A stretch of DNA of 64,000 nt. Source: Anadara kagoshimensis (taxonomy: Eukaryota; Mollusca; Bivalvia; Arcoida; Arcidae). Of the stretch, positions 17,037 through 55,562 are shown piece by piece. The first letter of the stretch is position 1. Each line of letters begins with the position of its first letter. The stretch spans positions 69,357,260-69,421,259 of the forward strand of contig CM037870.1 of assembly GCA_021292105.1 (NCBI GenBank), in the 5' to 3' direction. Both the position numbers and the translations under genes were made by a program. A model generated the notes under the pieces. The model searched no databases. It was not told where the DNA came from and saw only the letters and a list, made by a program, of their open reading frames with translations.

Positions 17037-19497
17037 TTTAAAAAAAAAAGAAAGAGACATAATATACATGTATTTAACATCATATACCTTTCTAGAACAA
17101 TATACATTCATTAAATGGCAAAGCATTTTGTTCTGTTAAGGATTATAGGTAACTAGTGGCAAAAATCACTAAAGCCAAAAGGGTGAAAAAGGAATTTACT
17201 TTCTCAGGATCAATACAAGTGATTAAAATTGCATATCCAAATTTTCCGGGGAGGGGGGGGGGGGGAGGGAGGAATGTCATTTGGGACCATTAGCTGATGT
17301 AGCATACATAATATCAAGTGGTTCTGATCAGTAGTTACAGATGGACAGACAGAGCTAAAACTGTATATACCCCCACTTCCTTGAAGCAGGGATATAAAAC
17401 AAATTTTGAATTTCCTGCATACTTTTATAATGCAAGTCTATATGAATAAAATTTAACTGTTGGCCAGTGGTGAGGAAAAAAAATTTTTGTCAGGTCCAGT
17501 CCATCAGTAAATTTAACTACTTAGGTATTTAGACCTACCATGAGTAGCTATATTTAGCTCATTTTAAACATATTGCTATTTTGTCACTTGTATGTACAAA
17601 AAGTCGCAGGTTAACTAGTAGCCAGTCTCCAAGTTTATATTACTTAATACAGTATCAATTAAGGTGGTTAATACCTTTAGTGAAAAGTAATGTCATTTTT
17701 TTCATACTTCTCATAAAATAGTTGAGGAAAAGTACCAAAATTTTTTGTAAAAAAAAAAATATGTCGATGAATGCTTGTTTTCAAGATATATTGGCTCAAA
17801 AATGGTGCTTTTCTGGAAAAATGCCAAAATTATCTTAAAATTGTGTGTTGGCATATGAGACATCATACCGCTTTCAAATTTGATATTCTTTCTCCCAGAT
17901 TTGTCATATCCATCAATAATGGAGTAGTAGATATTTTTATGTACAAAAATATATAAATTTATATTAGTGGATTTAACACTGTTTTTGTATTTCAAACAAC
18001 ATATTTTTGTTAAAAAGGCAAAAATTGTATTTTTTAAAACATTTTACCTTAGATTATCACCATCACTTTAGAGTATTTTCAATTTCCTGAAACTCGTCAT
18101 ACATAATTTTCAAGCCATTCTGAAGAGATTAAGAAAAATAAAAATCATATGCTTGCGATCTTCTTTTTTCGCTACAAGAGTTTGAAAATGGTACAGCTTG
18201 CATAAAAATGATGTTTTTGTGAGAAAAATACCCAAAACTAAAAATAAAAAAAAAAAAAAAACATTTACCTTAAAGATTAGTATTTTTATGTAAAATTTTA
18301 GTAATTTACTGCCAAATTGTCAATAATTATATTATACTATCTGTGTGTTTTGACCAAAGCGAAAATAAATGTAAAATCTGGATTTCAAACGTGTATATGT
18401 ACAACTTTGTAAAACGTTTGTACACCAAGTCATTGTGATGTCAGTATTTTCAAGACGTCATAATCCATGTCCAGATAGTTCATTTGTAAAAGGGTTCTAC
18501 CACTTTAAGTTAAAATTCTCTCAACTTATTGCATTCAAAAGAAATCCAGAGTCAAAAAATATAGAAGACTTAAGCTAGTTAAAGGTAGTCATGTTGTTTA
18601 CTGGCAGTTACTCCATGACTCTACATGTATGGTCAACAAGATGATCAAGTGAAAATCATTCACAACAATACAAGGAAATCATGCTTATTCATGCCTCATC
18701 GCACACAGGTAAATAACTGCACTTCAAACAAAAGAAACTCTATTATGTCTGAATGTGTTTTTAAAATGGCAGCAGTATTTGTACAGATTGGATATTAAGT
18801 AAAAGATTAGGTAACTGTCATCATGTGACTTTTGTTAATATGCGGGTGTCTGATGAAGTAGCTAAATATAGGTACTTTTGGTAGTTTTAAATATCGAGGT
18901 AGGAAAATATAGCTACGAAGGTAAATTTACTGATTGGACTACACCTGTCTGTTCTTGTCCAAAAACAAAAAAAAAAATCTCACCAGATAAAACATCACAT
19001 TCCCTCCCTCATAAAAAAGGCTGCTGCCTTAATAAACCTTGGTCGAGTTAAACTATGGATTAAACGTTCTTTGGCTGAAGTTTGAAGGACGAGGTGACTC
19101 GAAATATTAAACGTGAAAAAAATATCAATATTTTTAAATTAGTGATTCGGACAGGTCCAAATCACCTTTGCACAACTCCCCTATCAGAATCAAATGGCTA
19201 TGTTCAAATACGTCTAGTATCTAGTTTGAAATAACATCGTAATCTTTTAAATACGTCTAGTATCTACTTTGAAATTACATCGTAATCTTTTAACATTTTC
19301 TGTAGCAAGATCGTGTATCATATATCAGTCGCCATGTTGCTGATGCTGTCGAGATATCTTTTGAAACGCTTCGCATGATTGGTCGAAAAAAAGAGGAAAA
19401 TTACAAAATCGCAATACGATTGGATTAAATGAAATTTCATCCTTCGAAAGTTTAACGGTGATTGGTAATTGCAAAGTGCGCCAAATTACAGAGAAAG
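17037..19497. promoter_or_regulatory. Divergent control region between the Element 1 genes
   Basis: About 2.5 kb separates the finger exon (minus) from the BEN-gene ATG at 19498 (plus), and promoters for both should lie here. It holds a G-rich run at 17247-17271 and an A-rich tract near 18247. A roughly 53-bp direct duplication at about 19205-19295 (AAATACGTCTAGTATCTA...CATCGTAATCTTTTAA) lies about 200 bp upstream of the BEN ATG and could be regulatory. A first transposase exon may also be hidden here. Confidence 0.4.
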
Positions 19498-25400: not shown

Positions 25401-27779
25401 CTTTCCAAAGTTTTTTCCTAGATATCAATACAAATTTTGATAAGTTTCACTGGTCTTTACAATTTTTACTAATCTTCGGCACCGGGCTAGTGACTGAATT
25501 TCGCAAACTCACATGAAACTGCAGAAATTAGCCATTTGGCATATTTGTTGATTTACCCATATGTATAACCATCACAGCAATTCCAAATATTAGAATTGAA
25601 CAGGAGATACTTTTAACACCAAAACTGATTATAAATTCTGATCCTGATTTCTGTGTTCTAAAATAACTAAATATTGAAGTTGTCATTCATACAACTTGCG
25701 TGTCTTCAGTGCAGATCAAATCAACACATTTGTATGACCTAAAACCAAAAGATGTACGAAGATTGATTGAAACAAATAAGGGCTGTTCCAGAAATAATTG
25801 TAATGGGGGGAGGGTGGTTCGGGAGTCACTTTAATTAAAATTTTATGGGTTGTGGGTATTTTGGACTCTGGCACTGAAGAAATGCATTGAAAAGGTTAAA
25901 AAAAAACGAGAAAAAGAAAATAAGAATTTTATGCATGGTTGTTTTGTTTTGTAAGTGTCCCCTCCCCCCCACACACACATTTATTTCTGGAATAGCCCTA
26001 ACCAAAATGAATAGGAAAAAGGAAATATTATCATTAATTCAAACTGCAACTTAGTACATAGAGATATTACCCCTTGCAGGGACCATGTTTAACATTGGTC
26101 CCTATAGGGAACACATTCAAAAATCTCTGAAACCACTAAAAAAATAGGTGTGGTTCCGTGGTAACAGGTCAACTGGCCCCACGGAAAAATCGCCCCACTT
26201 TGCAAACTTGCCCCTGCAACAGAAAAGAAACAGAAATATGGGTCGCCCCAGTTTTGTCAAAATCACCCCAAAATGATGACAAATTCAAATCTGTTGACAT
26301 ACTACTGAAAGCTCATGTTAAGAGGAATCCAAAGAAAGAAACCCCATCAAAATGTGATGAAAATTAAAAAAAAGAGCTACTTTGTGAAAATGCGTTTTTG
26401 GCTCCCTTAGGCCCCTTATAGCTCAGAAATGGTAAGAGCTACGCAAAATCTGTCAACATACTACCGAAAGCTCATGTTAAGAGGAAACCAAAGAAAGAAA
26501 CCCCATCAAAATCCGATGAAAAATAAAAATTTAAGGTACTTTGTAAAAGTGCAATTTTGGCCCCTTACAGCTTGGAAACAGGAAGAGATATCCAAAATCT
26601 GATAGTTGTGCTCTATGTTTATTTTTCATAAGGAATCCATAATGGAAAAAACTGCATCAAAATCCGACTAGAATTAAGAAGAATAAAAATTCTGGGCTTG
26701 CCCCTTTTTGGGCCCTATTTATCTTGTAAACGGTAAACGTGAGGTTAAATGCGATGGCATACTACTGGTGCGTAATACTTTAAGCAACAAAATGAAGAAA
26801 CCCCCATTAAAATCTGATAAGAAATAAACATACTGCAGCAATATATGCGAAAAACACCCAAAATGCCCCTTTTTGGCCCCCTTTTTCTAAAATGGGTGGG
26901 ATCACAAATCCCTTTTTTGCTGAACAGCTTCCTTTTATGCTAAGGAACCTTGTGTTAAAATTTCATAATGATCCTTCAACTACAACTGGAGTTATAGGTG
27001 TACACGGACGACGATGATGAGGACTGCGCCATAGCATAATACGACCGCAAAATTTTGCGGTCGTATAAAAAGTAAAGAAAACAATGTCAGATATTATATG
27101 TATATTTATATAAGTAAATTCAATGTTTGTCAAAGTGAAGTATACACATACTGTTCACTTTGACAGACGCTGCCTATTTTGATACCTTACAAAGTTTGTA
27201 TCCAGTGCATCAAGAATTTAGGTGTTGTTGCTTTGTTTTCTGATGTTTTGATTATATATCTTTAGGTATGTAACAAGAAAGGAATTTGACGAGTTAAAAG
27301 AAGATGTAAGAAGACTAAAGAAAAAGCTAAGAGAATTTAAAGATGAACTAAAGTCAGAGAATCAGAAACAGAGGGAAGAAAAGATAGTGAAGGAAATTAA
27401 AGAGGAGGAAGATGTGAAATTGGAAGAGGATATTAGAACACCTATGAAAAATTGTGATGCTTCTCTATACAATGGGCATTCAATGTCAGCTTTGACTGAT
27501 TCAATATGTCACTTTGACAAGTTATACGATACAGTGAATTGTCTGTTGCTGAAACTATTTCCAAAAGATTACATCATAACACACAGCGTTTCTGGAAAAG
27601 CAGGGAATTCCAAGCTAGAAAAAAAAATGCCCTTTGACTCTAGACTTTATAGTGCTTTTCTCAGCATTGTGAAAGCAAAATTTCCAAATATAAACACTAA
27701 AGAAATCACAGAAAAAGTCCATTCTGTTCAAAAAAAAATTAAAAGAGAAAAAGATGAAAAAAGTGGAGAAAATAAATAA
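19498..27779 (+). CDS. BEN-domain partner protein of Element 1, intact over seven exons
   Basis: Exons are 19498-19669, 21374-21433, 22024-22095, 23148-23250, 23893-24027, 25254-25334 and 27266-27779. All have AG acceptors and GT donors and matching phases, giving 1137 bp or 378 residues with no internal stop. Residues 1-57 form an SH3/tudor-like module (MFALIQWSD..YEEGEYIEAKYQGKVYRAVI). The middle is charged and low-complexity, with NKEPEKAT-like repeats. About 212-265 is a Lys/Glu coiled coil. About 280-366 is a BEN domain (LTDSICHFDKLYDTVN, LFPKDYIITHSVSGK, FLSIVKAKFP, then ITEKVHSVQKK). BEN domains bind short palindromic DNA in known animal proteins. Binding to the element's own GACCATGGTC arrays is an inference. 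A host origin by capture is possible, but the same gene recurs in Element 2. Confidence 0.85.
24393..27068. repeat. Inverted repeat arms flanking exon 6 of the BEN gene
   Basis: The left arm (from 24393) has ACAACCGCAAAAAATTT, then GGTCGTATTATGCTATGGCG. The right arm (to 27068) carries its inverse, ATAGCATAATACGACCGC and AATTTTGCGGTCGTAT. Further in, GGATCATTATGAAATTTTAA occurs on both sides in inverted orientation (near 24510 and 26950), so the arms reach about 150 bp. Exon 25254-25334 lies between them, so this is not a simple insertion. About 26285-26600 also holds two copies of a roughly 160-bp unit. Confidence 0.65.
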
Positions 27780-27994
27780 AAACATGTAACATGAAAGAGC
27801 AAATAAATGAAATGAAATGTTAATTTTCTTTTGAGCAGATAAATAAAATGCAATGTTTTCTTCTTTCTTTTTCTAGTTTTTAAGACCACCTAGTGTGGTT
27901 CTGAAAGGAGTTCAGTTGTAAAAGGAGAGGCTGGTTTGTCTACATCCAGATTGCATTTGAAAGTGGGGTTATTTAGTGAAATTGCAGTAGTATC

Positions 27995-28320
27995 AACTTT
28001 GACCATGGTTGTCTATGGATTACCATGTTCACTTTACCTGAGGGTTTTTTCTGTTATGAACCATGGTAAATGACCATGATCAACCATGGTTGACCATTTC
28101 AGTCCATGGTCAACCATGGATATGGTTGACCATTTCAGTCCATGGTCAACCATGGATATGGATGACCATGGTCAACCATGGATATGGATGACCATGGTCA
28201 ACCATGTCATAATACCATGATGCCATTTAACAAAACATGGTCAACCATGGTTTACCATGGTCCAGGGATCATGAAAATTCATGGACAACCATGGTCTACC
28301 ATGGTCAATGACCATGATTT
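27995..28320. repeat. Element 1 right subterminal palindrome array
   Basis: There are repeated GACCATGGT and AACCATGGTC blocks, including GGTCAACCATGGATATGG in three near-identical copies between 28085 and 28200. The array ends just inside the right tip at 28335. Confidence 0.9.
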
Positions 28321-28739
28321 TTTCGTCTGGGTAGCATTAGACACATATATGTTTTTAAAAATGAAAAGTAGATATAATTGAGTTCAGTTCCTTTTTTAAA
28401 GCAAATTAAACAAAAGAAACCTTATAATTTTTGATTATTGAGTGACAATATCAGATTTTATGATAATAAGTTCTTAAATTCATTAAGCACTATCAGCTTA
28501 AATTTCCACAGCAAACATGTATACAAAAACAATTTTATACGATTTAGATTTGGAGGAAATTGTAATAATGGCTTAAATTAACATACACTGTATGAAATTG
28601 AAAAAACTTTTTAGTGCTTAAACCTTTGACTGTCTTCTTTTTTGTTTTTTCTTAATTTACACACACACTAGATTCTTGCTAGATTAACCATTTGCTTTAC
28701 TAGGCACCCATCATGCATTATGGCATTACAGCATCTACC

Positions 28740-37239: not shown

Positions 37240-37261
37240 CCCCTGCGAAATGGATCCATAA

Positions 37262-37555
37262 ATGACCATGGTTGACCATGCTTAACCATTGCCAAGCAAT
37301 GCCAACCATGGTTTAACCAAGGTCAACTGCACTTTCAGTCATAATTTCACCATGATTGACCATGGTTACCCAAGCCAGAAAAACTTGTACCATGGTCAAC
37401 CATGGTATGTATTCATTGAACCATGGTCGACCATGGTATGTATTCATTGAACCATGGTCGACCATGGTATGTATTCCTCGACCATGGTCCATGGTCAGCA
37501 ATAGATTTAATTTTTACCAGTCTGCATTAATTTAAAACCATGGTTGACCATGGTC
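37262..37555. repeat. Element 2 left subterminal palindrome array
   Basis: Copies of GACCATGGTTGACCATG and ACCATGGTCGACCATGGT include a tandem ACCATGGTATGTATTCATTG block. The motif is that of Element 1. Confidence 0.9.
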
Positions 37556-38370
37556 ACATTACTTAGATCTGATAACTGTAATATACAACAGCTGGTAAGA
37601 TCATTAACAAATGTATTTGATTTTGCGATAGATGCATAGTAATATTATTTTGTTTTTCTCTTTTCAGGAAACAGTTCTATTCATCAAAACAAAGCTACAA
37701 GCTAATTTGGGAATTTCAATTTTTAAAAAGATACCCCAGGAATTAAAAAAAAAATATCACCTGTCCATATTTCATACAAGAAAATATTTTATAACCAAGA
37801 TTTCCTACTTTTACTTACAACATGATAACTGGGCGTGGTTGTTCAAAGCTTGATTAGTTTAATCAATGATAATTGTGCAAATTGAAAATTCTAATTAAAA
37901 CATTTTTGTGTCATTTGAATAAATAGTTTTAAAATCATTGGATTCTGATGTTATACACTAACATTTCAACATGAATTTCTGAATGATCACATTAAATACA
38001 GGATACAAATTTTGACTAATCAACTGATTAAATTAATCCAGTTTTAAACAACCGGACCCTGATAACATGATCCATTAACTGCAATTTCATTGCTTTGCAC
38101 AAAAAAAATGAATGGGTTGTATTCTTTTCATTTAAAACTAATTATAACTTAAAATATTTGTTCTTTATGTTGTGAAATCCATTTCTTGTGTGTACACATG
38201 ATCAATAGTTACTTCAATACACTGTGCCCAATTACATTTGGCAGCAATGAAATACATTTCATCTCTCCAACAGTTATAAAAAAGACCTTTTCCTTGATTA
38301 GACTGGCAGAAAATACATGTAAATTGTTTTCATCGCCCTCTTTATTCTAAGTATGTGTCTGCCACTGGAC
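37556..38370. other. Non-coding, downstream of the Element 2 transposase
   Basis: An AT-rich 3' flank inside Element 2 with no gene recognised. Confidence 0.5.
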
Positions 38371-41134
38371 TCAAAAAAAAGCAATTGTGTTCAAGTTCAT
38401 ATTTTTGGCGACTGCAAACACCTCTTTTACCCTATTTATTACATAGTATTTAATTGCAAATATATCACCTGCTTTACTAACAACAAAATAGCAAACTCTC
38501 TTTTCATTCTTGAGTATTCTTCAGAATAAAACTTTTGACCACACAATTCAATCCTGACACATTTTCTAACTTCCGATAACTTTTCTGCATTAATTGAAAG
38601 GAGCAGGTTGTTCGGAGCCAAGTTTTCTGAGAGTTTTAAGAGTTTTCCTGCGACATTACAATTCTGCATGGGTTTTGTAGAAGTCCAGCATCTGCCTCTT
38701 TTTCTTATCTCATTTAAAAATGACTTTTCTCTGTCATTTCCAGTGCATGTTGTGATGTCCAATGCATTTAACTTCATCTCAAGTTGCTTTGTATGTATAT
38801 ACTGCCTTGTAACATCCCCCGTCCCATTAACAGCTTGCAAAATTGCAGCGTTTGCGTCCTCAAATGGGAAGCAACTCCATGCCCAAAGGGGACCCCAATT
38901 GTCCACAAAACTGACTAAATGCGCTCCAACATTGTGTAAATTTAGGGTACAACATTCAATTCCATATAAATTTTGATAGGCTTTGTAAAATTTGTTCAGT
39001 AAATCAGATGCTCTGTGAATATCAGCTCTTGTGATATTATCTCCCAAAAGAAGAAAAACGCTTTCAGAAAATGAGCAGAAATGCTCCAAATACACATCTG
39101 GTAAAATATGTCTCAAACAAGGAACTGCATAATAAAGCAACCAAGTTTGAAATTCAGTTGCTTTGTAGTTTACATAGTGTTTTTCTAAATTTCTAGGAAG
39201 TCGTTCAATGCAATCTGGAGGGGTCATCTTTTGAATCCTGCTTGAAATTTCATCTAGATAATTTCCAATGAAGAAAGGTTTAGCACTATTTTTGGAGAAA
39301 ACCACAACTGCATAAGAGATTTGGTTGTACCAAGCAACACACCATGCATATAATCTGGAACTAATCCATAAACCAAGTCAAAATCTGGTAGTGCAGACAA
39401 TCCAGACACGCCACATATACCTTTCACACGATTCTGTCGAGTTGCTTTTTGAGCTGCTTTGTTAATATCATCCGATTTTCTAATTTGAGGCTTATCTAAG
39501 GTTTCATGGTATGGATAACAACGGACATGTCCCTTTCCTTTTTTCACTACTTTTCCAGGCTCCTCACATGTTGTGCACCCATATTCTCCATTATGCATTG
39601 ACATATTAGCTATGTAAGCTTTTGCCTGTAGATCAACTGATGCACATATAACACCAAATTTAACTATGACCACACTTTGATCAGGAAGTGTAATGGAAAA
39701 TCCTTCATAATATAATTTCTCTACTGCAAGGGCAAAAGAGTACATGTAATGAATAAATGGTGGGTTATCTTTCCCTTGCCATATTCCTGCAAGTACAATG
39801 TTATTCTTGAAAATCTAGGAGATGGAGGGAGTTCATTAATTGCCAGAAATATTGGCCAGAGTTTTACTTTGGAAGATGAATAGAGTGGAATACCATCAGT
39901 ATTCATAAGACCACTGATATGAGTATTATGGCTCAAAAACTGGCCAGGTTCACAAAGTCTTTTATACAGTTTACCATCCATTATATCACGAATGCAGCCG
40001 TCAGTTGAAATTTCACCGACATATCTTCTTTTCATTTCTTGAATAAGTTCCCAATTATTTGATCTTTCCAGAATTAGTTTTAATTGGAACTCCATATTTG
40101 CAATAACATATGAACATTTGGGTTGACGATTTGGCTGTTTCTGAGCTGCAGTGTTACCTTTATATCGCTTTCCACCACATCCAGCAGTACCACAGACGAC
40201 TACATTTTGATCTTCTGGAAAAATTGCATTGCATTTTTCACAATAATGTACACATTTACAGTTGGAATTTTCATCGCTTTGCAATGACCCATGACCTATG
40301 CCAAATTCTGGAGACAGAACCGAAATTAATTTTATAAGATAACGAGTAGCTTCTCCTGAAAGATTAAAACGCCGGGCATAAGCTAAAACACAAAATTCCT
40401 CTAATGCAGTGGATGATTTTTCAGAATTTTGTGGATTTTTTTCATTTTGATCACTTTCATCATTACATGAACCTCCATTTTCATCACTTGAGCTGTTAGT
40501 GTCCCAAGTGCCCCAATCCTCATCATCTGTGCTTTCTCCTACCCAAAAATTATCACTTATGTTAGAATCCTGGCTGTAACAGGATAAATCACTTGCTGCG
40601 TCAGTATAATGTTTTCCATCTTCATCAATTAAGCTACATGTATCATCTTCCTCATCATCACTACCATCATCAATAAACATATCTTTTAAACTGTCATCAT
40701 CATCACAATCCTCCACAGTCAAGCTGAAGTTTTCACTGGCTATGTCTTCATCATGACCTGAACTAACAAAACTGTCATTCAATCCTGACCTGGCAGCCTT
40801 CCAAAAAAGTGTTCTTTTGGGAACAGGTATATTGCTATCAACTTCATATAGTTTATACCGCTTTTTAACAGGACCTAAAAATATGAAAATGTTTAACATT
40901 AATCAAAAGATATAATGTAACTTTTTCCTCTTACCTCTATGCTGTCACAAGTAATGTTTTCCATATCTACATGTATATAACAATAAGCCATTTACAGGAC
41001 CTATATCTCTCAATCTCTCAACTAGTACTTAATATATTTCATCAACAATAAGCAAATCATATGTTTTGTTTTATTATAAATCATGGTTACCATGTGATTT
41101 TAATTTCTAAATGCTGAGTGCTTGGGATTATGGA

Positions 41135-41370
41135 TTAATGGAGCTTTACGCTCCACCCCCAGTCAAGAGTATTTCACTTATGTCGAGGTGGTCGGTTCAG
41201 GGATGATGGAGGAAACCAGAGTCCCTGGAGAAAACCACCAACCTTCGGCAAGCGAACTGACAAATTTTCTCACACTAGGATCTGCCTGAGCAGGATTCGA
41301 ACCTAGGCAGTGAGAAGCACTGTGATCGGTTAGCATGCGCTTTAGACCACTCGGCCACCACCTCGAGACC
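41135..41370 (-). mobile_element. tRNA-derived SINE in the transposase intron
   Basis: The minus strand starts GTGGTGGCCGAGTGGTCTAA (box A) and has CTAGGTTCGAATCCTGCTC (box B). It ends in the shared tail with AAATACTCTTGACTGGG. It lies between exons 42700 and 40874. Confidence 0.8.
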
Positions 41371-42350
41371 CCTGCCAAGTGCTTGGAGAAGAAACAGTCA
41401 CTACTTTTTCAAGTCTGGTCAGGTCTGAACTCCAACCTCCCACATAGAGTGAGCACTCTACCAACTGAGAGCTTCCATAGTGGTTCACTGCCAAAAGTGG
41501 TTTCAAAGAAGATTTTCACAGAATTGCCTTTATCTGCACAATTTGCAAAAATGATGTCAGTGAAAAAATTCTCAGAAAAACCTATTACTTACGCTTTCTA
41601 TATAAACAAGGTGTTCAGAGAACACTATCCCCTTGCAATGGTGAACATAAATGAATTACATACAGAGTGAAATCAATTTTATGGACCACTGGAAGCTCAA
41701 TCTGATGAACAGTTTTCATTTATATGTGTGCAGGCCATGAAATGGTTGAAAAAGTCTGTATTTAGTAACAACAGCAACTACCTTGGATGCAAAATTAGGT
41801 TGTCAATCAGTCCCATACCAACACCTGCCATAACAAATATATTTAATAACAGCGTCAATCTAGGATACACAATTAGGCTGTCGATGTACAGTTTTCTTTA
41901 AACTGCAAGGAAACCATGAATTGGGTGGAAAAGTCTATTTTTAGTAACAGTGGTCATCTTGGATGCATGATTAGGCTGTCGAACAATCACCACCAGAACA
42001 AAATCAACCGACCAAGTTTCAGCTCAATCAGATGTACTAAATGTACAGAAAAGGAATCTGGTGAAAAAAGTCTATTTTTAGTAACAGTGGCCATCTTGGA
42101 TGCAGGATTAGGCTGTTGAGCAACCCCATACCAATCACCACCATAACAAATCAACTGATCAAGTTTCAGCCCAATAGTATGTACGGTTTTCTTTTAAATG
42201 CGCAGAAACCATGAATCAGGTGAAAAAGTCTATTTTTAGTAACAGTGGCCATCTTGGATGTACCATTAGGTTGTCAAGCAATTTCACACCAATCACTACC
42301 ATAACAAATCAACTGATAAGTTTCAGCTCTATCAGATGTAAGGCACAGAA
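41371..42350. repeat. SINE fragment and ~160-bp repeat array in the same intron
   Basis: About 41380-41500 resembles the SINE body at 50960 (minus: CTCAGTTGGTAGAGTGCTC). From about 41690 to 42350 there are roughly four copies of a unit containing GTGAAAAAGTCTATTTTTAG, TAACAGTGGCCATCTTGGAT, TTAGGCTGTC, and CAAGTTTCAGC. Confidence 0.65.
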
Positions 42351-42364
42351 ACCAATCCGGACGG

Positions 42365-42365
<1 letters not shown>

Positions 42366-42404
<39 letters not shown>

Positions 42405-42462
42405 AGAGCGGTATAACTATATCCCCCTCACCATCGGTGGCCAGGGGGGGGGGGGGGGGGGT
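42366..42462. repeat. (CA)n and G-run microsatellites
   Basis: The (AC)n run at about 42367-42400 and the G run at about 42445-42461 sit at the end of the intron repeat array. Confidence 0.9.
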
Positions 42463-43394
42463 TAATTACAGGTAAACTAATAATACTTTCTACACAAAAT
42501 CAATTGAAAAATAAATAAATGTTCTTTTTTGTGTTATTGCTATTAAAAGCCATCTTGGATGTTGGAGGGTTGTTTGGTACAAATTTAATTTAGCCCACCG
42601 CCTTCAATGTGGAAGTGGCCATAAAAAAATTGCCAGGTATCAGTTTTTGTTGCTATATTGAATAAATTTTATTATTATATTGTCAGAGATTGTACTTACT
42701 TTTGCCATGTTGTTTGTTCAAATGAAGCAAAATTCTTTGTTTTGAACTAAGAATCTTCTTGCATATTTTACACTGGTATCTAGATTTGTCAACAGAAGTG
42801 TAACAGTTCTCTTTACCATCATAGGTGTTTGCTTCTTGACATTCTAAAATACATAAAAGATTATAATGAATACATTGTGAAGTGTGTGTTTATATGACAG
42901 TTAGAAGTCTACTATCCATCTAAAATAGAATAGAAAGAAAAAATATTTAATTTTCTGCAGCTAATTTTTGCAACATATTTTATCTGGGATATCTAAGCCA
43001 GCTATTTCCTCACACTAACATAATGTATATACCAGTTGAACTGAGATTCAGAAGCATTTGAAAACAGATGGCTTTGAATTGAACCCTGTAGAAAACAATA
43101 TGTCAGTAAAAAGGGTTCAACTCCTGTATACCCGGCAGGTGGTGTTCATAGAAAATAAAAATGTACAAGAATTTCTAATTTGATCTTTATGCATGTAAAA
43201 AATTCCAATATTAGTAGATAATTGATCAAATTTGTATGTTTCTGTAAACACATTATTGTTTACTAACCTGAATGTTTAAGAAGAATATGACTTATGACTC
43301 GCTGTTTGGAAGAAAGTGTCCTGCCACAAGTTGTGCAAGTAAATGTTGTTACACCATTGTATGTCTGCACTTCAAATCCATCAGTCGTTGCCAT

Positions 43395-44521
43395 TATTTA
43401 AAATCTAAATTTAAAAAAGTTTTTTATATAATGTCTGTTTGGCAGCAAGACTGTTGAGATGTTTCTACACTACACATTTTACATCAAAACTTCTGAGTTA
43501 TTTCATACCTGCACACAAGGCTTTCAAGTTCCAGCAAATATTTTGACAGTAACCATAAGCTCCTATGGCCCCCTTGGAACCCTTGATTTGCCTTGATATA
43601 CAGAATATATGTTTGGCAATAATTCATGTGTTTGAGGGTCCATTCTGAATCTCCTCCAAAATTCCTTATTATGATAGTTATTAATAGTATCGTGATAGTT
43701 CATTACATGGGGAATATAATATTGCGTCTCCTTAATGCACAAACAGCCAAAAGCGATGTCTGCCTGTTCTTGCTAGCAAGTACAACAACATCTGTGTTAT
43801 CCTCATGATCATCATTCATCATTGCCATTAAAATTATTGTTTTAAGTTCAGGACTTGTTTGTTATCTGCCATTTTTTTCACTAAAGAAACTGATCATTTT
43901 TTCCAAACAAAACTAGTTTTGAAACTAGTTAGAAACCTAAAACTTAAACTAAAACTGGTTCAAGTGAAACAAATTCGCCCCTAATCTAAGCGATGTTCTG
44001 GAGATTGGATGAAGTTGTAACCATTTCCTCCTCCCTCCCGCCCGTGTGTGCCACAAACGATGTTCGGTTTACAAAATACAAATACATAAAATACATAGAA
44101 GTACATATGGTTTTACCTCGTCGTTTTGATATCTGTAATTCGACCGCCGTTTGCTGCTGTTGTTGTTTACCACACGTTATATTCAACCGCCATCAGAACA
44201 TGTCATACGATCTTGGTTAAACAGACGCTCTGACCAACGAACATTGTATCTGTTATTGAAAGCAGTCAGGTGATAGCGAATTCGATTTTTTAAAACTTTT
44301 TTAAATTCTCAATAAAGTATATTCTTAAGTGTCTAATCATAATTCTTAATTATCCAAAGATTTCCGTTAAAATAGTATATACATTTTATTTTTTCGGAAG
44401 TGATCCTTGTTGATTCAGCATCAGTTGCATGCGCGATTCGATCGTCTGCATCTCGAAAATTTGGCGGTTTTTGATTCAGATTGTGAAGACTTGACACTGA
44501 CCGTGTGATTGAAACTGAAGG
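43395..44521. promoter_or_regulatory. Divergent control region of Element 2
   Basis: An interval of 1127 bp lies between the transposase ATG (43394, minus) and the BEN-gene ATG (44522, plus). No core promoter motif stands out. A GC-richer patch with CTCCCTCCCGCCC near 44028 and ATGCGCGATTCGATCG near 44430 precedes the plus-strand gene. Confidence 0.45.
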
Positions 44522-44969
44522 ATGGAACTTCTTAAAGCAAAGTATTGTTTACTTTATTGGTACCATGAGGAACGGAATTGGTCTGTTCAGACAACTTCAG
44601 CCATAAAATGGCCTTTACGCGATCCTGAGTCTTATCAAAAGGGGATGCTGGTGATGGCGCGGTTTCAGGGTAAACTGTATCGCGCCGCCATTATTAGAGT
44701 GAAAGGTATGATGATAAGCGGCATAACCCTATACTTTTTGTTAAATCTGCAATTTATTTTACGTTTGCCTATACTATGGCTAAAAAACATTGCATCCCTG
44801 GTACATGACCAATTTCCTGGTGCTTTTTTATTGCATCGCCTAGCGATCTTCTCATACCTTCGATATGCCCGTGCAGGTCATTTCGGCACCTGTAAAAAAA
44901 ATGTCATTTCGGCACCCGGTCTTTATGAATGAATCAGATTTTTTTTTCTTTTATCTGTTTTATTGATTG

Positions 44970-45110
44970 AATGTCCCAGTCAAGATTATTTCACTTATTT
45001 CGAGACGTCACCAGTTTTAAGTGAAGTGACAGAAATGTCATTGCACTAAGGCCAATGTGCAAGTGATGGATCTTTTGCACGCCACGCCTATTCTTTGACC
45101 TGGAATAATA
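44970..45110. repeat. SINE tail fragment in BEN-gene intron 1
   Basis: It shares GTCCCAGTCAAGATTATTTC and CGAGACGTCACCAG with the SINE tails elsewhere. There is no tRNA-like head. Confidence 0.55.
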
Positions 45111-45244
45111 TATATTATATTTAAAGCTGCATTAAGGTTTCCAATTTATTGAAATTTTTTTGTTTCTCTAAAAATATTTTTTTATCAATCTGAATTGGTT
45201 TAAATTACCATCTCTGCTCTTCATTTTCCAAAATTCAATCTCTA

Positions 45245-45675
45245 TCACAGGAGCTCGTAGTTTTAAAAATCTATACATAAATAGGTAGGTCATGTAAACA
45301 AACACATATAAAACAACAAGGACAGACACTCGAAATGACATCTGCTTGTAGGTAGATACCTTCCGAGGCGATCCGAATGTACTTCCGGGTCAAGTGTCCA
45401 CCGTAGGTTTCCATCTCCGCTTCAACTGTCGTTTCTGGTTAAATTTCTGGCAAGAAATCAGCTGAACGATCATATTTTTGTTATCGGGTAGAAGAAAAAA
45501 TAGTTTTGTAATGGGAAACGAAAGCTTGTTCCAGAAATATAAGCGTTTATAGTTGAAAACAACGTTTGAAGCGAGAGGGGGTAGGATCGAGTGTCTGTCC
45601 TTGTTGTTTTATATGTGTTTGTTTACATGACCTACCTATTTATGTATAGATTTTTAAAACTACGAGCTCCTGTGA
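45245..45675. mobile_element. MITE with perfect 89-bp inverted repeats
   Basis: Arms 45245-45333 and 45587-45675 are identical inverted copies (outer end TCACAGGAGCTCGTAG). The 6-bp direct duplication TCTCTA lies outside them (45239-45244 and 45676-45681). The 253-bp centre has no coding frame. Total length is 431 bp. Identity of the arms implies a recent insertion or recent spread. The superfamily is not determined. Confidence 0.92.
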
Positions 45676-48600
45676 TCTCTATAAGCAATATTAAATGGGA
45701 ATTCTAAAAACTTGGGCCAACCAGATAATATGATAATTATTAGGTTGGAGCATGGGCAGAAGCGCGACATACATGCAAACAATGCCGTTGACTGTTCATT
45801 TGAGAACGGCAACAGATTCCGTCAAGAAACGAACAAGGGCCAATGTGGACAAACTGAATCCAAAGATTTGAATCGGTCATCCTCAGATGGAGAAATGGAT
45901 ACAAATAAAACAGGTGTTTAACTTATATATACACACGACAAAGTGGTCATCACTCCTGTGGACACAAATAGGTCATCAGTATTACATTAGAATCGTGATC
46001 ATTTTCTTAAAAAAAGACCTTTGGTAGATAATAAGGATGGGGGTTTTCAGCGATTTTAACATAATTAAAGGTTTTATCATGAAACAAAATATTACATTGT
46101 TCATTGGAATGCATTTTTAAAAAAAACGCGGTTTTATTTTATACATAGGAAACCTTAATTCAGCTTTAAGATATATACTATTTAACTCTAGTATAATCAA
46201 ATCGGGGACCTTCCCAAAACTGACTGAGCTACCCAGCAAACTATCAAGCCCATCCCGCCATATTCCTCCCTTAACTTGGTAAAACAACATTTATTTCCAT
46301 TGATTATTGCTACTAAACACATTTATGCCAAAATATTTATGCATACTGGTGATTCCGCCCGTCCGGTGATTCTGTGCCCCGTTTTTCCACTGTATCAAAA
46401 TGATGTCTAAATAAAAACAGATTTTGTCTTTCCAAACAAGTGTTTTGTTTTGGAGAAACATTATAAATATAATTGACAAATTATATACAGATAATATACA
46501 ATTTCACGAATTAAAATGAGTAAAATATTGGTTTTCAGATATGCACTACTTGATTGTACATTCATACAAGACAAAGAAAAAAGTGCAGCAGTGAGCTGTT
46601 TTTTCCACCGTGTTTTGTGTGTTTAAAATACTGATAATTCAATTCAAACAAAATGAAAGTCGCGCCATCATTGTAACAATATTATGGGTCACCGTAATAC
46701 AAAGTCAAACAAATCAGAACTGCACAGAATCACCGGACATGACATTTGAAGTGCACAGTGGCGAGTGCATGTTTTATACTGTAGAAATATAAATTATGAT
46801 TAAATTTAAAGATTTGCATTGTTTACATGACGGCAAAAAATTGATCTTTCAGTCGAAACAGAATAATTGTAATTTTTCATGTGGTTTGGTCATAATGTGG
46901 CGAGAATAATCCTTACTAGTGATGCACATAATCACCGGACAGCATCATATATGTGGGCAAAAATTATGTTGTCCTTGTTTACTAATTGTAAAAATATTTA
47001 TGTTTATATCAGACGAAAAAGATGATCTAATTGAAGATAAAATAAAGTTAGATGGTTTGTTAAAAGACTCTTCACTGACCCCAAAGATGGTATGTGAACA
47101 GATGGACATAAATGTGGATTTGGATGTAGATCCAATGGCAGTGAAAGGTAAAATTTAAATTATAAGTTTGTATTCTATGTAATGTTGTTGAGTTTTATTT
47201 CTAGTGCCGATACAATGCAGCTGGGTTTCAAGAACTGACTGCTTAACCTGTCAACCTCTAATTGCTTTTATGTAACTATGTATTAGTTTAATATCATCTA
47301 TAGGAATGAACTTGAAATACATTACACTTTCGATTTTCTTTGAGACAACTTGTAGCAATTCCATGGCTACATGAACTAGGTCACAATGACTGAGAGCTCC
47401 AAAACTGACAGTGTGATATTTGGCTTCTCTAGAGTCTTTAGCCTATAATTGTTCATTTATGATTTAGTGAAATTCAGTTGCATTTGATTTGGTACCAGCG
47501 CTCCAGATAATTTTTGAGGCATAATTCTTCATGAAGCACAGATTTTTGTTGCAATGCTGAATAAGTTTAAATCAGTACTTGGAAAACCATGATATTTATT
47601 TTAAATTAGAATTATGCAATCGTTAGTTTGGTTGACGAACTTGAACAATGATAACTGATGTTCATCATCAATGAATTTGGCATTTTTGCTTCTCCGTCCA
47701 CGTTGAGAAGTCATTATTCACCATAGACAGAATGTGTCAGTTCGATGTGCTTTGCTATGCACCATGTGCTCTACAGAAGAACAGTTATTAAATTATCTCC
47801 CTTTGACATACCTTAAACTAGTTTATCAATATCATAGACTGACTTTTTGGGTTGTCCATCTGGATGTTTATCGTGAATACGCACGACAGGGCATTCTAAT
47901 TCTTAACCAGCTTTTAGTTTTGCGTTCTATAACTCATGGATTTTTTGTTTAATACTTTTTCGCACTCTATCTGGAGCACTGTGGTAAATGTTTTTGCTGC
48001 GAGTTTTTCATAAAATGGCTAAACATTTAATCTTAACACAGAAATAAGTATATGCACATTCTTTCATGGGACCTAACAATTTGCTAGGCATCATCCCAAT
48101 CTTTATTAACAAACATTCCAGGACAAGGGTGTTTATTATGACACCATTGTTGATTCCTAATCTTTATTTCCTCTCAAACAATACTATACAAGAAATTCCA
48201 ACATATCATAAATACATACCATATGATCTTTTATTTAAATGAACATTTTCACTTGAGAGAACACAAAAACATGCTATTTCTGTCTTTCCTTGCCTTTGAA
48301 AATTCCACAAAAAACTGCTGAATCGAGTTTTAAGCAATTCACAAACATCATCTTGTTTCAAATTGAAAGTGAAAAGTGAGGATTTCAAGACAGCTTATAG
48401 AGTTGAAATGAACTATTAGTAATGATATGAAAATATCCAGATTAAATCTGATTTATCTCGCTTCCAGGTACATTGGCATTATCTCTTGTCAAACATGTCC
48501 ATGTGTGTCCATGGTGCATCTTGTTTTCCATTGCATCAGCAACTTTGGCTATTTGCAGCAAGACAAATTTTGTTAATCAGGAGGATTGATCCAAACACAA

Positions 48601-49487
48601 GTTCATGTGGTACTCAACTATGCATGCATTCCTGATCTGCTTTGTACAATAGGCATGGATGAGGTCATTTAGAGTGATGATTAATTTTTGGAAAAATTCA
48701 TGTTTAAACAGAGCTGTAAAATCTGATTTTGAGTAATGTTTGTTTGATTTATTTAGAAAAGGAGAAGGTGCCTCTTGAAGCTGCAGAAAGAAGAAAGAAG
48801 AATGATCAGGCTGAGAAGAAGAAAGATGATGATGAAATGAAAAGCAAAGATGATGCAGAGAAAAAGAGCAAAGATGGTGTAGAAAATAAAAAGAGAGATG
48901 ACATTGAGAAAAAGAAGAAAGAGAGACTGAAATTGAAAGATGAAGGTATACATATATTCATATACTGTATATTGGGAAAATTTTCGTGAATATTTAAATA
49001 GATATGATTCAGTTGCATTTGTACTAACTGTCATCCGATGACACGAAAATAAAAGTATGTGAATAACTTGACATGGCCCATCTCGTGAAAATTTCTCAAT
49101 TTACAGTACTAGTATAATATGAATAGTATTTGTATTTGTTTTGTTATTGTTAGTTTGCCATTTGGTTCATGTGTAAAAATAAAAATAGTCTTTGTGCTTC
49201 ATTGGGTGATGGAGATGTCAAAGTGAGAAGTCACCAATTTATTTCAAATTTTATATGGTGTAACATTCATTCCCCATGACTCAAACAAAAAAAATATTTA
49301 AAATAATAATAAAAAAAAAAAAATTAATGAAAATAATAAATAATAATAAAGGACGATAAAAATGAGAAAATTTGCTCTCACATGATCTATTTAATCCTTT
49401 AAGAGATCCTTAAAGAGAAGAGTCTAGCAAATATTGCAGAGAAATTATTAAAGAAACCAAAAGGTAAGACTTATGTTAACTTTTTAT

Positions 49488-49966
49488 CATTTTTAGCCCA
49501 ACTGGCTATATATAGCCAGCTGAGCTTATGTCATGGTGAAGCCTGCGTGCGTAAACTTTAATCTTCTCCTCTGAAACCACTGGGCCAATTGGACCCAAAT
49601 TTGGTGTAGAAGTTCCCTAGGATGGGTAGACTAAAGTTTGTACCAGGCGACCCCACTCGACATCTAAGATGGCCGCCATTACTATAAATAGTAAAAACGC
49701 ATAAATAGCCATTGTGGATTCAATTTTTAACCGATTTTGTTCAAATTTGAAATAAAGTACATTTCATTTAACATATATAAAGGGTTTTCCAAGAAATTTT
49801 TCAAATTTTTAAGCAATTCTTCGAAAATCTTTTCTTGAAACCGATGTTAGGCATGCTTCCATGCTGTATGATGCCATTTAACATAACATTTGCTTGTTAT
49901 TTATGAAATACATAAATTAAGTGCCAGTTGAGCATTACAGGTCTTATTGGGCCTCTTGTTTTTAAA
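49488..49966 (-). repeat. Dispersed repeat, inverted copy, in a BEN-gene intron
   Basis: It begins TTTAGCCCAACTGGCTAT and has CAGCTGAGCTTATGTCATG, then AAACTTTAATCTTCTCCTC, GGCCGCCATT, and ends CAGGTCTTATTGGGCCTCTTG. This is the AGAGGC...GAGCT family in reverse orientation. Confidence 0.7.
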
Positions 49967-50814
49967 ATAAAAATTGGAAATGGCACTTTTGTGCCAGGAA
50001 GCATAAAATTCATGTAACTGCTTTCACAATTTAAGAAAATTAACAAAAACAGAACTTTAAACCTTTACACCAAGGAACCACATGCCAAATTTCAAAACAA
50101 CATATCCCTGAACTCGTCTAAAGCGAGATCTTTATTTAAAAGTATTTTTTTGAGGATTTTTTTTTTTCTTTAATGGTTGAGTTTTTTTGTTTTTTGTTTT
50201 GGTCTTTCACTTAATGTTGCAATTTTTGTATTTTTAGTACAAGTACCTCAGTCATCCTGTAGTCAACAAACAGATGATATGGTGTGTCTTAGCGGTATGT
50301 AATTTCTAATTTTTTAGCTCACCTGAGCACAAAGTGCTGATGTTTTGGGAATTTTTAGTGGCAAATTTGGGAACATTAGCTAATTTTGGCGAGGGGAAAC
50401 TACCAATATTCGGTAGTCAATTGTGGCAAACAAAATCACTGATATTATGCTTTACCAATTCATTGAAAGTCAAACTGCTGTACCAGATACATGTAGTTGT
50501 CGTAAAATCTTGACTGAATTCAGCATCAAAGGGCCTTTTGTTTCCTTTAAAAGAAATTTCTTAGTTACGCAAATTGTAATTTTTTTCCTTATTTTTTCAG
50601 ATCTACCCGAGCTGTCTTCTACGAAAGTAAAGCAAACCATATTGGAGGTGTAAGTTTTAAAATTTGCATCATTTTTTGCAAACATTATTATAACAGGTTT
50701 TTCCATAGCTTTTCCATTCACCTGTAATTAGCAGAATATAATTTTTTTAACTGATTGCATTGGAGGACTTGAAACTTCAAAATATTTGTACAAATGAAAA
50801 AGGTGATGATTGAA

Positions 50815-51118
50815 TGTGGTTTTATGTCCCAGGCAAGAATATTTCACTTATATCAGGATGTCACCAGCTATCAGGATGTCACCAGCTATAGGTGAAGTGA
50901 CAGAAATTTTTACCTTTGGAGTGCACTTAGGGCGGGTTCCTATGTGACACGACGTGACATTGGCTTTTAACATATCTTCTAAATGCTGAGTGCTTGGCAA
51001 AAGAACAGCTACTACCTATTTTCAAGTCTTGGTTGGACCCTATGATGCTTAGAACACCAACTTCCCACATGATACAAAGGGAGAACTCAACCAACTGAGC
51101 TACCATAGTGGTCGTACA
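50815..51118 (-). mobile_element. tRNA-derived SINE in the last BEN-gene intron
   Basis: The minus strand begins at about 51115 with GACCACTATGGTAGCTCAGT, then TGGTTGAGTTCTCCC. It has the CACTCAGCATTTAGAAG body, and ends in TATTCTTGCCTGGGAC. GTCACCAGCTATCAG is duplicated locally at about 50865-50890. Confidence 0.7.
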
Positions 51119-52124
51119 AATGAAGGGTGAACAATTTAGCTTCATTTAAAGTCACTGATTTTATTGTTAGAAAATCGATCATATTTATCTTGGCAAGAAT
51201 TTGAAATGCATGTTAAAAATACTAGGACAACAGAAGTAGCCACAGTGAACAATACATGCCTCATTTTAAAAAAAGAAGACAAATTACATTATCCATAAAT
51301 GTTTTGGTGAAATTTTATAATGTGGAAATAATTGATGTAAAATGCTTTTTAAAAGAATCTTTATATTTTATTTTAGCCCAAATGGAATCCAGTGTAATTG
51401 TAGGAAGGAAATGATAGAATTCAAAGAAGAAATAAGAAGGTTGAAAAGACGTGTTAGAGATCTTGAAAAAGCTTCCACATCACTGGAAAATCCTTCAACA
51501 GAGGAAGCTCGATTGCCTCAACCTGATCCCCCCAAAAAAAGATGAAAGATGCAGAATGTGACAAATCAGGCAGTGTAGCAAGTACATGTACACTAAGCAG
51601 TGCTGCATCATCAGAGCAAACTGATAGTCAATCGGTGTACAAAGGTTACACTGAAAACGGTTTATTGGATGCTATAAGTCACATCGACTCCTTGTATGAA
51701 TGTGTTCATCATATCTTCTTCTGCTATTTCCATTAGAATATATTATAACTCATAGTGTAACTGGTCAGAAACCAAATTCTACTACTCCATCGAAGCCAAA
51801 ATTTGATGGACGTTTATATGGACTTTTTTTAAGGGTCATTAAAAATAAATTCAATAAAATAAAAGACACTGAAATTACCTCAAAGGTGCAAACAGTTCAG
51901 AAGAAATACCGAAAACAAAATTTAAAGAAACTTGAACAAACGTCCATTTAATTGTATGTATGCCTATATGGACTTGAAAAGTGTTTGATTTTCATTGTAA
52001 ATAAAGAAACTTCAACAGGTTTTTTTTTTTTTTCATTCACGGCAGCAAAATGTGTAGAATTAACACACACCTTTCTCTCTCTTTGATGAAGGCCAGGATG
52101 GATTTAAACCTCCTTGTAAACTTA

Positions 52125-52448
52125 TGATTGGCCTTGGTCTATCATGGTTAACCATGTGTGACCTTGGTCTATCATGGTTAACCATGTGTGACCTTGGTCT
52201 ATCCTGGTTAACTTGACCATACTGTCAACAATTTGATCATGGTCAGCAATGGTTTATGACCTTGACTGACCATGGTCAGTTATGGTATATGACAGTGGTT
52301 GACCATGGTCAACCATGGCCATCGTGACCATGGTTTTATGAACATGGTGCAATTTAACAAAAATGTTAAAACCATGGTTGACCATGGTAGTGTGACCATG
52401 GTTGAACTTGGGTCAACCACGGTGGATCATGGTTGACCATGGTTCCAT
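52125..52448. repeat. Element 2 right subterminal palindrome array
   Basis: GACCTTGGTCTATCATGGTT occurs in three tandem copies, followed by TGACCATGGTCA, TTGACCATGGTCAACCATGG and related palindromes up to the tip. Confidence 0.9.
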
Positions 52449-52458
52449 TTCGCAGGGG

Positions 52459-53775: not shown

Positions 53776-54234
53776 GAGTTTGAAGACCTGAAAGCTTCTT
53801 CAAAATCCCTCAAAAGAAAATTAAATGAAAATTCAGAGTTGTTAGAAAACCAAGGCGCTGCAAGCAGCTCAGTTGATGCAGCATCCTAAACATCTGGTCC
53901 AGGAGTGGACAAGTTATTAGACAGTGTAAAACATTTGTCTGGAAACACAGCTGAAAAGGAAGTGACAGAATGTGTTTGTCGCATAGCCCTGTCTGTGTTC
54001 ACCAGGCAAGACCTGGTAAACTGTTCAAGGACAGGGAAAAAGACACATCACTCCGGTGAAACTGTAAGACCAGCCCTTGACACCAGCAAATTAAATCAGG
54101 TGGAACAAGCAGTTCTTATGAAATGTTCTGGTTTAACTGTGGATCAGTTCAAAAAGAAATTTGACAATCTTGTCAAAATGGAATGGAGGTCAGCAGCTGC
54201 TGACATTGCAAAATCTGTGCCACAAAAACAATAA
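53776..54234 (+). pseudogene. Fourth BEN-domain exon
   Basis: Reading from the repeat junction: EFEDLKASSKSLKRKLNENS (coil), ENQGAASSSVDAAS, an in-frame TAA at 53886-53888, then GVDKLLDSVKHLSG. The BEN-like part follows: CVCRIALSVFTRQDLVNCSR, TGKKTHHSGETVRPALDTSK, LTVDQFKKKFDNLVKMEWRS, stop at 54234. Organisation (coil followed by BEN and an immediate stop) is that of the last exon in Elements 1 and 2, with clear sequence differences. A single stop separates it from an open exon. Its upstream exons are not found; a dispersed repeat abuts it. Confidence 0.7.
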
Positions 54235-54444
54235 GTCATTATTATTCCAGAAACTCTAAAATCAATTTGAGCATTTTTTTCCATTTATAAAGGAATGTAT
54301 TAAATGATATTATTTAAATTTGGTTATTTTTTTTATTGCAGCATTGCAAGTGAAAAAAGAGTCATCTAAGAAAGGCCTATGATTCTTCAATGAGGACTCT
54401 CTAAACTAAAGAATCAGACTATATTCACATGTATAAATTCAAGT

Positions 54445-54742
54445 TCCTGTAACAGTTTATAGAATGGTTCTTGAACTGGAAAATTGTTCTAGAACAGTTC
54501 TTGAATAGTGAGAAGTTTTGAGGTCTAAATACTGTCATCAAGTTCTTGATTACTGTTCCGGAACTTTTCTTGAACAAATTGTTCTGGAACAGTTCTAGAA
54601 CTTGAAAGCTCAAGAACTTTGTCTCATTCAACGTTCAAGAACTGTTCAAGGACAGTTTAAGAACACTTCAAGAACAGTTCTTGCACTTTAATTCTATAAC
54701 AGTTCAAGAATAATTCTAGAACAGTTCTTGAAATTTTTACAG
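54445..54742. mobile_element. Small non-autonomous element with palindromic motif array
   Basis: The ends TCCTGTAACAGTTTAT and, inverted, TCCTGTAAAAATTTCA are flanked by the direct repeat AAGT. The interior is almost wholly copies of AGAACAGTTCTTGAA in both orientations. It is about 298 bp long with no coding. The design (short tips plus palindromic array) is that of the large elements in miniature. Confidence 0.7.
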
Positions 54743-54749
54743 GAAAGTT

Positions 54750-55562
54750 GATGAAGAAGAATGCACTAAAATTCCATCCTTAGGCCATTTAGGTGCAAGT
54801 CGCATTCTTGCAGAAACAATGAAATTAAATTCACCAAAAGCACAAACCTTATAGCTCTTTGGGTCAATGAGAAAGGATGATGTAACAATGGCAAGCCAAA
54901 TAATCTGATTATTTCATCTCTTGGTCATAATTTGTCATTGAAAAATGGAGTTGACCAGATTAATTATGTTCGGGCAAAAATGCGAGAAATTTCCAGACTA
55001 CTTCTGCAGGTAAGGAAGAATTGTAGTGATGCAGAACTGACACTTCAGGCCATTCTTGATCCTGCTAAATTTGATTCCATAATTAATGCAGTTTTTACAG
55101 AATGTAAATATGCTTTGCAGACAGATTTAGCAAGATTTGAAACTCCATCTTTGGCATTGAAACTTGGGCATAATCTAAGGAAATGTTGTTACATAAAGAT
55201 GGGAATGTGCATCAAAAATAAAGACACAGAAGGGGAAAAAGAAGCTGAACAGTTTCTTAAACTTATGTTGATGGAGTATGCTAACAAGGTCAGCTCAATT
55301 GCACTGAAAACAACAATAGACACAAACCAAAGCAATTGCCTTTGACAGAGGACATGGTCACATTCAGGACATTCATACAAGAGCAAATCTAGTCATTATC
55401 TCAAGATTTACAAGAGGAAAAGGATAATGGTGATCATGATGGGATATCAATTTTCTATGACTTAGCTAGAGCCACATTGTCAAAACTAATCACATTTAAT
55501 AAATGGCGTTCAGGAGAGGTTGCCATAATGTTGCTAATACTTTTGGACTCTTTTGATGGATA
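54750..55562 (+). pseudogene. Tyrosine-recombinase-like family, central part
   Basis: The main frame 54932-55345 reads NYVRAKMREISRLLLQVRK, ALKLGHNLRKCCYIKMG and EYANKVSSIALKT. After a shift near 55330 it continues QLPLTEDMVTFRTFIQEQI, a TAG, SLSQDLQEEKDN, and LARATLSKLITFNKWRSGEV. The RSGEV arginine is a candidate for the first catalytic Arg of tyrosine recombinases. Homologous segments occur at 2950-3485 and 35.7 kb. The frameshift and stops make this copy dead. The catalytic C-terminus continues at 58846. Confidence 0.65.

Follow-up and report, generated by a model that had tools for sequence, protein, structure and literature searches.

Plant En/Spm transposons, which have CACTA tips and 3-bp target duplications, carry subterminal repeats that are bound by TNPA, a protein that is not known to have a BEN domain. 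According to the available parts of DeMarco 2006 (PMC1636069), TNPA is spliced from the same transcription unit, and TNPD interacts with it and stabilises its binding to DNA. The animal relatives of CACTA elements described there, the TRC elements, have a Transposase_21 domain, tips starting with CCC and 2-bp duplications. Among them SmTRC1 of Schistosoma mansoni (4.5 kb; 2-bp duplication in 7 of 14 copies) has one large open reading frame (ORF) and short spliced ORFs, PrA and PrB, which have no recognisable relatives and were proposed as analogues of TNPA. Here we analyse 64,000 nucleotides of the bivalve Anadara kagoshimensis (GCA_021292105.1, contig CM037870.1, positions 69,357,260 to 69,421,259; this whole stretch is called the window, and positions without a contig label refer to it). 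It contains a two-gene CACTA-type transposon, named family A, with a tnp2-type transposase and its own BEN-domain protein.

Separate or built-in DNA-binding domains are known from other transposons. In the parts of PMC9579193 at hand, domain DBD1 of the Tn3-family transposase TnpA has a BEN-like fold, binds sequence-specifically and is a key determinant of end recognition; that system is bacterial, its domain lies within the transposase and is not a separate protein, and no palindromic arrays are seen in that text. Nuwa, a PIF/Harbinger element, resembles family A as a two-gene transposon with a separate DNA-binding partner, but in the available description its transposase belongs to another superfamily and its partner has another domain, Myb/SANT (PMC12730594). 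A BEN-like fold is tied to transposition only in PMC9579193 among the accessible portions of PMC5704228, PMC9579193, PMC9233729, PMC11075544 and PMC11732705. We found no BEN gene described in a eukaryotic DNA transposon in the open-access literature, judged mostly by title and abstract (Repbase, Dfam, subscription papers and Pan et al. 2023 on BEN phylogeny lie outside this scope), and a BEN partner of an animal CACTA/TRC transposon appears to be new. A preliminary description, made from the sequence of the window alone, knew of no described animal CACTA family with such a partner; the TRC group does exist, with the traits given above, and what stands is that the available text of PMC1636069 describes no BEN gene in it and lacks the word "subterminal".

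Results

Two divergent genes between inverted tips

The family A copy runs from 37240 to 52458 (15,219 bp), with perfect tips, arrays at both ends and two genes, and 12 further copies lie elsewhere in the genome. Its tips, CCCCTGCGAAATGG, are perfect 14-bp inverted repeats at 37240..37253 (+ strand) and 52445..52458 (- strand), and the ends starting at 37240 (+) and 52458 (-) match at 75% over 48 bp. The inverted tips had been recognised in the preliminary description of a CACTA-like element; they begin with CCC and not with CACTA. Classical CACTA elements differ in their CACTA or CAC tips and 3-bp duplication; the tips here are CCCCTGCG, CCCAGACG and CCCTGTCG. A CCC core is found in families A, B, D and G, and the 9.2-kb TRC element of Aedes begins CCCAG, as does family B (PMC1636069, in the parts available). 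Since CCC tips and 2-bp duplications (see below) match TRC, the transposon lineage itself is not new.

Inside the tips lie the palindromic subterminal arrays that had also been noted before, at 37260..37560 and 52120..52444. The palindrome ACCATGGT occurs 12 times in 37240-37560 (321 bp) and 7 times in 52120-52458 (339 bp), and is absent from the 14.6-kb interior and from the window beyond the family A and B elements. The density of CATG is 44-47 per kb in the end zones against 5 per kb in the interior, and spacings of 10, 20 and 30 bp between CATG cores are frequent in the arrays, which would favour binding of a BEN protein along one face of the DNA.

Between the arrays, two multi-exon genes stand divergently, head-to-head, as first described; their exon models were made from splice signals and reading frame, without RNA. 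The transposase gene (- strand) has three exons coding for 980 residues: exon 1 (43394-43268) holds the start codon and C2H2 finger 1, exon 2 (42843-42700) holds C2H2 finger 2 (Pfam finger matches below cut-off in both), and exon 3 (40874-38209) holds an acidic stretch, the tnp2/DDE core and the C-terminus. The BEN gene (+ strand) has eight exons coding for 479 residues. Exon 1 (44522-44705) encodes an N-terminal region that has matches beside other transposases; the first 100 residues of the protein have no Pfam match. Exons 2-7 (45725-45913, 47013-47147, 48757-48945, 49404-49463, 50238-50294 and 50601-50649) are supported by splice signals, phases and an open frame, and exon 8 (51377-51951) encodes a stretch that is coiled-coil-like by eye and the BEN domain at the C-terminus. 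Small insertions or deletions (indels) break both genes in the window copy, in transposase exon 3 and BEN exon 8. The transposase frame is open in 4 of the 10 copies tested (C3, C8a, C8b and C18b, labels that stand for contigs; an eleventh sequence is incomplete), and the BEN frame in 9 of 11.

Two repeats lie in the introns. Intron 1 of the BEN gene contains a perfect 90-bp inverted repeat (arms 45244-45333 and 45587-45676, 253 bp apart), which is probably a nested foldback element. Three pieces, 83-93% alike, of a short repeat resembling a short interspersed element (SINE) are found in introns of both genes, at 41158-41187, 44975-45004 and 50828-50857.

The transposase and BEN proteins and their relatives

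An intact family A transposase matched Pfam DUF1258 at 34.9 bits (cut-off 33.1), and over 885 columns it is 43% identical to that of family B. Matches to Transposase_21 and BEN in Pfam had been suggested as a check of the preliminary description. Family B passes both cut-offs, with 35.0 bits for Transposase_21 (cut-off 28.6) and 36.1 for BEN (cut-off 23.2); family A lies just under the first at 26.8 bits and under the second at 16.0 bits, but its transposase, by its identity to that of B, is counted with it in the CACTA/EnSpm superfamily (CMC group). EnSpm, Mirage, Chapaev and Transib transposases have, in the parts of PMC12730594 available, a signature D, D, E with C(2)C and H(3-4)H between the second D and the E. 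The family A and B residues agree with it: D417, D505, C524/C527, H738(4)H743 and E763 are conserved in both by motif, and catalysis by this protein would be expected from homology. No relatives of the transposase core were found in viral contigs, and the best match in a PDB search with the core (E 0.071) was unrelated by name.

Family B, C, D and F BEN domains and that of a relic in the window exceed the Pfam BEN (PF10523) cut-off of 23.2 bits, with 36.1, 34.0, 47.6, 42.3 and 23.4 bits. A profile built from five families matched solved BEN domains, those of BEND6 (9.8e-10) and of 4ix7 (listed as RE55538p, which we take to be fly Insensitive; 5.9e-5), while the single family B sequence matched BEND6 at E 0.016. 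The BEN domains of families C, D and G also have weak Pfam matches to DUF4806 (E 0.005-0.011), which the accessible part of PMC11075544 treats as a subtype of the BEN domain. Likeness to the host proteins BEND6, 4ix7/RE55538p and NACC1 lies in the BEN domain, by profile, and in the CATG core of the NACC1 target: its BEN domain is described as binding palindromes with such a core through the last helix (PMC11472053, PMC7764960, in part). These host proteins differ in being chromatin or transcription factors that are not borne by transposons.

The gene pair recurs across transposase families

The genome (1.115 Gb, 36 contigs) was searched with the transposase core, giving 113 matches in 86 loci. 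Pfam BEN was above its cut-off 23 times genome-wide, and 16 of these 23 have a transposase match in head-to-head orientation no more than 25 kb away, where about 0.02 were expected, so that the BEN gene as a chance neighbour can be rejected. When BEN evidence was pooled from Pfam BEN and from searches with the BEN proteins of families A, B, D and G, a head-to-head BEN-protein match at 25 kb or less accompanied 43 of the 86 transposase loci (in 5 of these the match covers only the N-terminal region). The search scores best candidates only, so misses may be undercounted matches, and in dense clusters a locus may be credited with its neighbour's BEN gene. Pairing falls with transposase identity, from 13/13 in family A to 24/32 at 45-90%, 5/15 at 36-45% and 1/26 below 36%. 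Fourteen of the 61 pooled BEN entries are without such a transposase; four of these have open frames of 195-838 residues and may be host genes.

The head-to-head place is kept in at least six transposase families (A, B, C, D, G and H). In family H (tips CCCCTGCGAAATAG), BEN genes were found, as predicted, by a G-type BEN query, 39% identical and head-to-head; among the four H elements with a transposase match, BEN was found in three (C3:64.86, C9:22.28 and C16:28.46 Mb) and not at C9:14.04 Mb.

A more distant transposase family (34% identical) gave eight matches of equal score, at C1:18905211, C3:41078341, C4:25576088, C8:44824104, C8:46795039, C12:14884718, C12:14898278 and C13:6790577; no BEN match was detected beside these eight.

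Family B and a BEN relic in the same window

About 9 kb to the left of family A, at 11445..28331, lies a copy of family B (tips CCCAGACGAAA) with the same head-to-head genes. Its transposase main exon (12599..15305, - strand) is broken in frame here, and is open over 903 residues in the C9 copy; its BEN exon is at 27252..27779 (+ strand). The arrays hold ACCATGGT ten times at 11445..11840 and nine times at 27990..28331. Exact B left tips occur 13 times in the genome. Every one of them is paired with a right tip, and each of these 13 copies has the transposase and matches the BEN exon (10 identical, 3 degraded); the window copy differs from that at C9:28.42 Mb by 3 substitutions in 16,865 bases and by 23 indel events.

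Families A and B match at the DNA level in the transposase exons, the finger exon, the end zones and one short repeat, with no match in introns nor in the BEN exon. Their BEN exons are 39% identical in protein over the exon match, and the region of finger 2 is 56% identical. That both proteins have diverged (43% and 39% identity) and yet keep the same layout counts in favour of the reading proposed below. BEN codons differ 40, 28 and 58 times at positions 1, 2 and 3 over 91 codons, a pattern that indicates coding constraint on the BEN gene.

A third BEN exon (53911..54231, + strand), just above the Pfam cut-off and 40% identical to the family G BEN, is a relic of another element; a stop lies shortly upstream in the same frame, and directly after the exon follows an array of the subterminal type, GTTCNNGAAC six times at 54440..54760. 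At E 0.05 the window outside families A and B showed no transposase remnant, but this search has little power, since its family A BEN query also missed the relic BEN exon.

End arrays and BEN types

Arrays were read at both ends in families A, B, D and G. ACCATGGT is found in A and B, GTTCATGAAC in D, and GTTC(TA/TT)GAAC in G, H and the window relic. Family D (C8; tips CCCTGTCGA) has GTTCATGAAC arrays at both ends with 4 and 11 perfect decamers, family G (C5; tips CCCCTGCGA) has arrays of GTTCTAGAAC and GTTCTTGAAC at both ends, and the sole H member read (left end, C3:64862440) has an GTTCTTGAAC array. The BEN domains of A and B, which share ACCATGGT, are 50% identical. Within the set formed by C, D, F, G and the relic, identity in this domain is 29-47%, and between that set and A or B it is 24-32%; inside the set, D, G and the relic, which form the GTTCNNGAAC class, are 29-40% identical. 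In the few families sampled, array class thus seems, from these comparisons, to go with BEN type.

Copies, target duplication and age of family A

Genome-wide, the family A tip pattern was found 23 times exactly and 3 times with one mismatch, and by pairing these tips make up 13 elements; the transposase loci that are 99-100% identical to family A also number 13. A BEN protein match lies between the tips in all 13, in 12 of them with the BEN-domain exon and in the C11 copy with the first exon only; that other copies would share these tips, and that the gene pair would always be found between them, had been put forward as checks of the preliminary description, and in substance both hold. Looser tip matches, with up to two mismatches, total 713/733 against 707/691 in controls, which is control level and makes them meaningless as a set.

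Sequences were taken from 10 of the 12 other copies (C19 partially; one end each was read for C9:28.48 and C11). Eight other complete copies are 15,750-15,768 bp long, and a ninth, enlarged by an insert, measures 17.6 kb. Nine full-length elements, including the window copy, were aligned (C9a and C19, with large inserts, were excluded); pairs differ by 0-7 substitutions over 15.2-15.8 kb, with 0 in 23 of 36 pairs, and the C3 and C8b copies are identical across 15,768 bases. The remaining differences are indels. No substitution separates the window copy from C3 over 15,212 aligned bases, which rules out that the former is an old relic; the two differ by 17 indel events. The largest is a deletion of 544 bp in the window copy; the other 16 span 1-2 bp each, and about nine of these fall in homopolymers or a CA repeat. 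Many of the indels may stem from the assembly, and a few substitutions may have been lost in polishing. The flanks are mostly different, which indicates separate insertions, and these were apparently very recent.

A TTT does flank the window copy, as the preliminary description had reported. Its reading as a target duplication was rejected: 2 bp are duplicated exactly in 7 of the 10 copies with both flanks compared (TT, TA, TA, TC, TG, CA and TA; no match in C3, C14b and C18b), and a 3-bp match occurs in the window copy only, none of the other nine sharing it. The chance rate of a 2-bp flank match is one in sixteen. In family B the duplication is exact in 8 of 13 copies, with no match in 5; one of the eight, on contig C24, has flanks common to two other copies. 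Family D shows it in its one copy (TA) and family G does not in its one (TT/TA). The C18b copy and the family G element lie inside satellites, where the uninterrupted unit, read by eye, is compatible with a 2-bp duplication if a single base has changed.

Some copies share one flank. The A copies C14b (C14:66.47 Mb) and C18a (C18:10.88 Mb) have a common right flank (1.5 kb, 99.3%) and different left flanks, the B copies at C18:16672193 and C9:42152409 share the left flank only, and in the B copy on C24 the left flank matches one B copy and the right flank a different one. This points to misjoins at identical repeats or to recombination.

Different BEN/transposase families also cluster within tens to hundreds of kb (C9:14.00/14.04, C9:28.42/28.48, C14:66.47-66.67, C14:69.22-69.41 and C18:42.75-42.79 Mb). 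This clustering may point to shared landing zones or local hopping.

Discussion

The gene pair, its head-to-head layout and its recurrence across families are accompanied by arrays that are specific to the family. We propose that the BEN protein probably binds the array of its own element and works like TNPA of plants. Family A would be a two-gene, cut-and-paste CACTA-type transposon, TRC-like, whose transposase would cut at the CCC tips and insert with a 2-bp stagger. The BEN protein, built of an N-terminal region, a charged and coiled-coil-like middle and the C-terminal BEN domain, would bind as an oligomer to the palindromes near both ends, and would so mark and pair these ends for the transposase; probably it would also control the element's divergent promoters. 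Its teamwork with the transposase would resemble that of TNPA with TNPD, with a different DNA-binding domain. En/Spm likewise combines a tnp2-type transposase with a second DNA-binding protein, and differs in that the BEN protein has a separate gene. We consider the comparison with TNPA a sound one, as an analogy.

Several observations weigh against this proposal. Half of the transposase loci (43 of 86) have no BEN match, including 25 of the 26 below 36% identity and 8 of the 32 at 45-90%. Pfam BEN scores only 16.0-19.1 bits on family A and 17.8 bits on family G, both under the cut-off, and the assignment in these two families is made because of their relatives and the five-family profile. For family C, 1.2 kb past the BEN exon were read and showed no array. 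In perfect 8-bp palindromes the H left array (4) and the G right array (6) stay within what 500 single-base shuffles produced, with up to 8 and 7. The BEN groups are not cleanly separated (D-relic 29%, A-relic 30%, B-F 32%), so only a few families underlie the link between array and BEN type. The CATG core that ACCATGGT and GTTCATGAAC have is missing from GTTCTAGAAC, and recognition would therefore differ in family G.

Other roles for the BEN protein can be weighed on the same evidence. It might bind the arrays outside the cutting complex and act only on chromatin or promoters (as an insulator, a repressor or an anti-silencing factor), since those eukaryotic BEN proteins that have been characterised serve as factors of chromatin and transcription (PMC11472053, in the parts available) and divergent transposase and BEN genes could share their control. 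We judge this unlikely. The arrays are close to the two tips and at least about 7 kb away from where the BEN gene starts, which is the position that end recognition would call for, and a BEN-like domain recognises transposon ends in Tn3 TnpA (PMC9579193, in part). The two readings also overlap, in that plant TNPA does both jobs. The arrays might instead be read by the two C2H2 fingers at the N-terminus of the transposase, with the BEN protein doing something else; conservation around finger 2 in A and B, which both have ACCATGGT, fits this idea, but CATG palindromes are a known BEN target and array class appears to follow BEN type in the sampled families (fingers being compared in A and B only), which makes it quite unlikely. 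That the element captured its BEN gene from the host and carries it as a passenger, without a part in transposition, is hardly credible: 7 of the 23 Pfam BEN matches do lie away from any transposase match, yet the head-to-head place persists across at least six transposase families, and coding constraint on BEN was kept while the introns of A and B diverged.

The near-identity of copies could also be an artefact of assembly or polishing and not a sign of recent movement, given that copies differ mostly by short indels and that the shared single flanks may be misjoins. We hold this improbable, since the copies occupy separate sites, for the most part with flanks that differ and a 2-bp duplication that belongs to the site (7 of 10 in A, 8 of 13 in B); polishing could hide a few substitutions but could not create insertion sites.

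Binding of each array by its own BEN protein, in a role like that of TNPA, thus remains the reading we prefer. Family A itself is a large DNA transposon of an animal that seems to be very young and still has intact copies. The available text of the SmTRC1 paper (PMC1636069) leaves the TNPA counterpart of animal CACTA relatives open, and the BEN protein is a concrete candidate for it; several natural BEN/array pairs in one genome make its specificity directly testable by swapping. More speculatively, and with some doubt, there might be a whole clade of animal CACTA/TRC transposons with BEN as the standard second gene, each BEN coevolved with its own array, and this clade may have repeatedly supplied BEN proteins to hosts or taken them from hosts. 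If the proposed role is true, eukaryotic BEN domains, which have mainly been described as chromatin factors, would gain a role in mobile elements, in parallel to the end-binding domain of Tn3.

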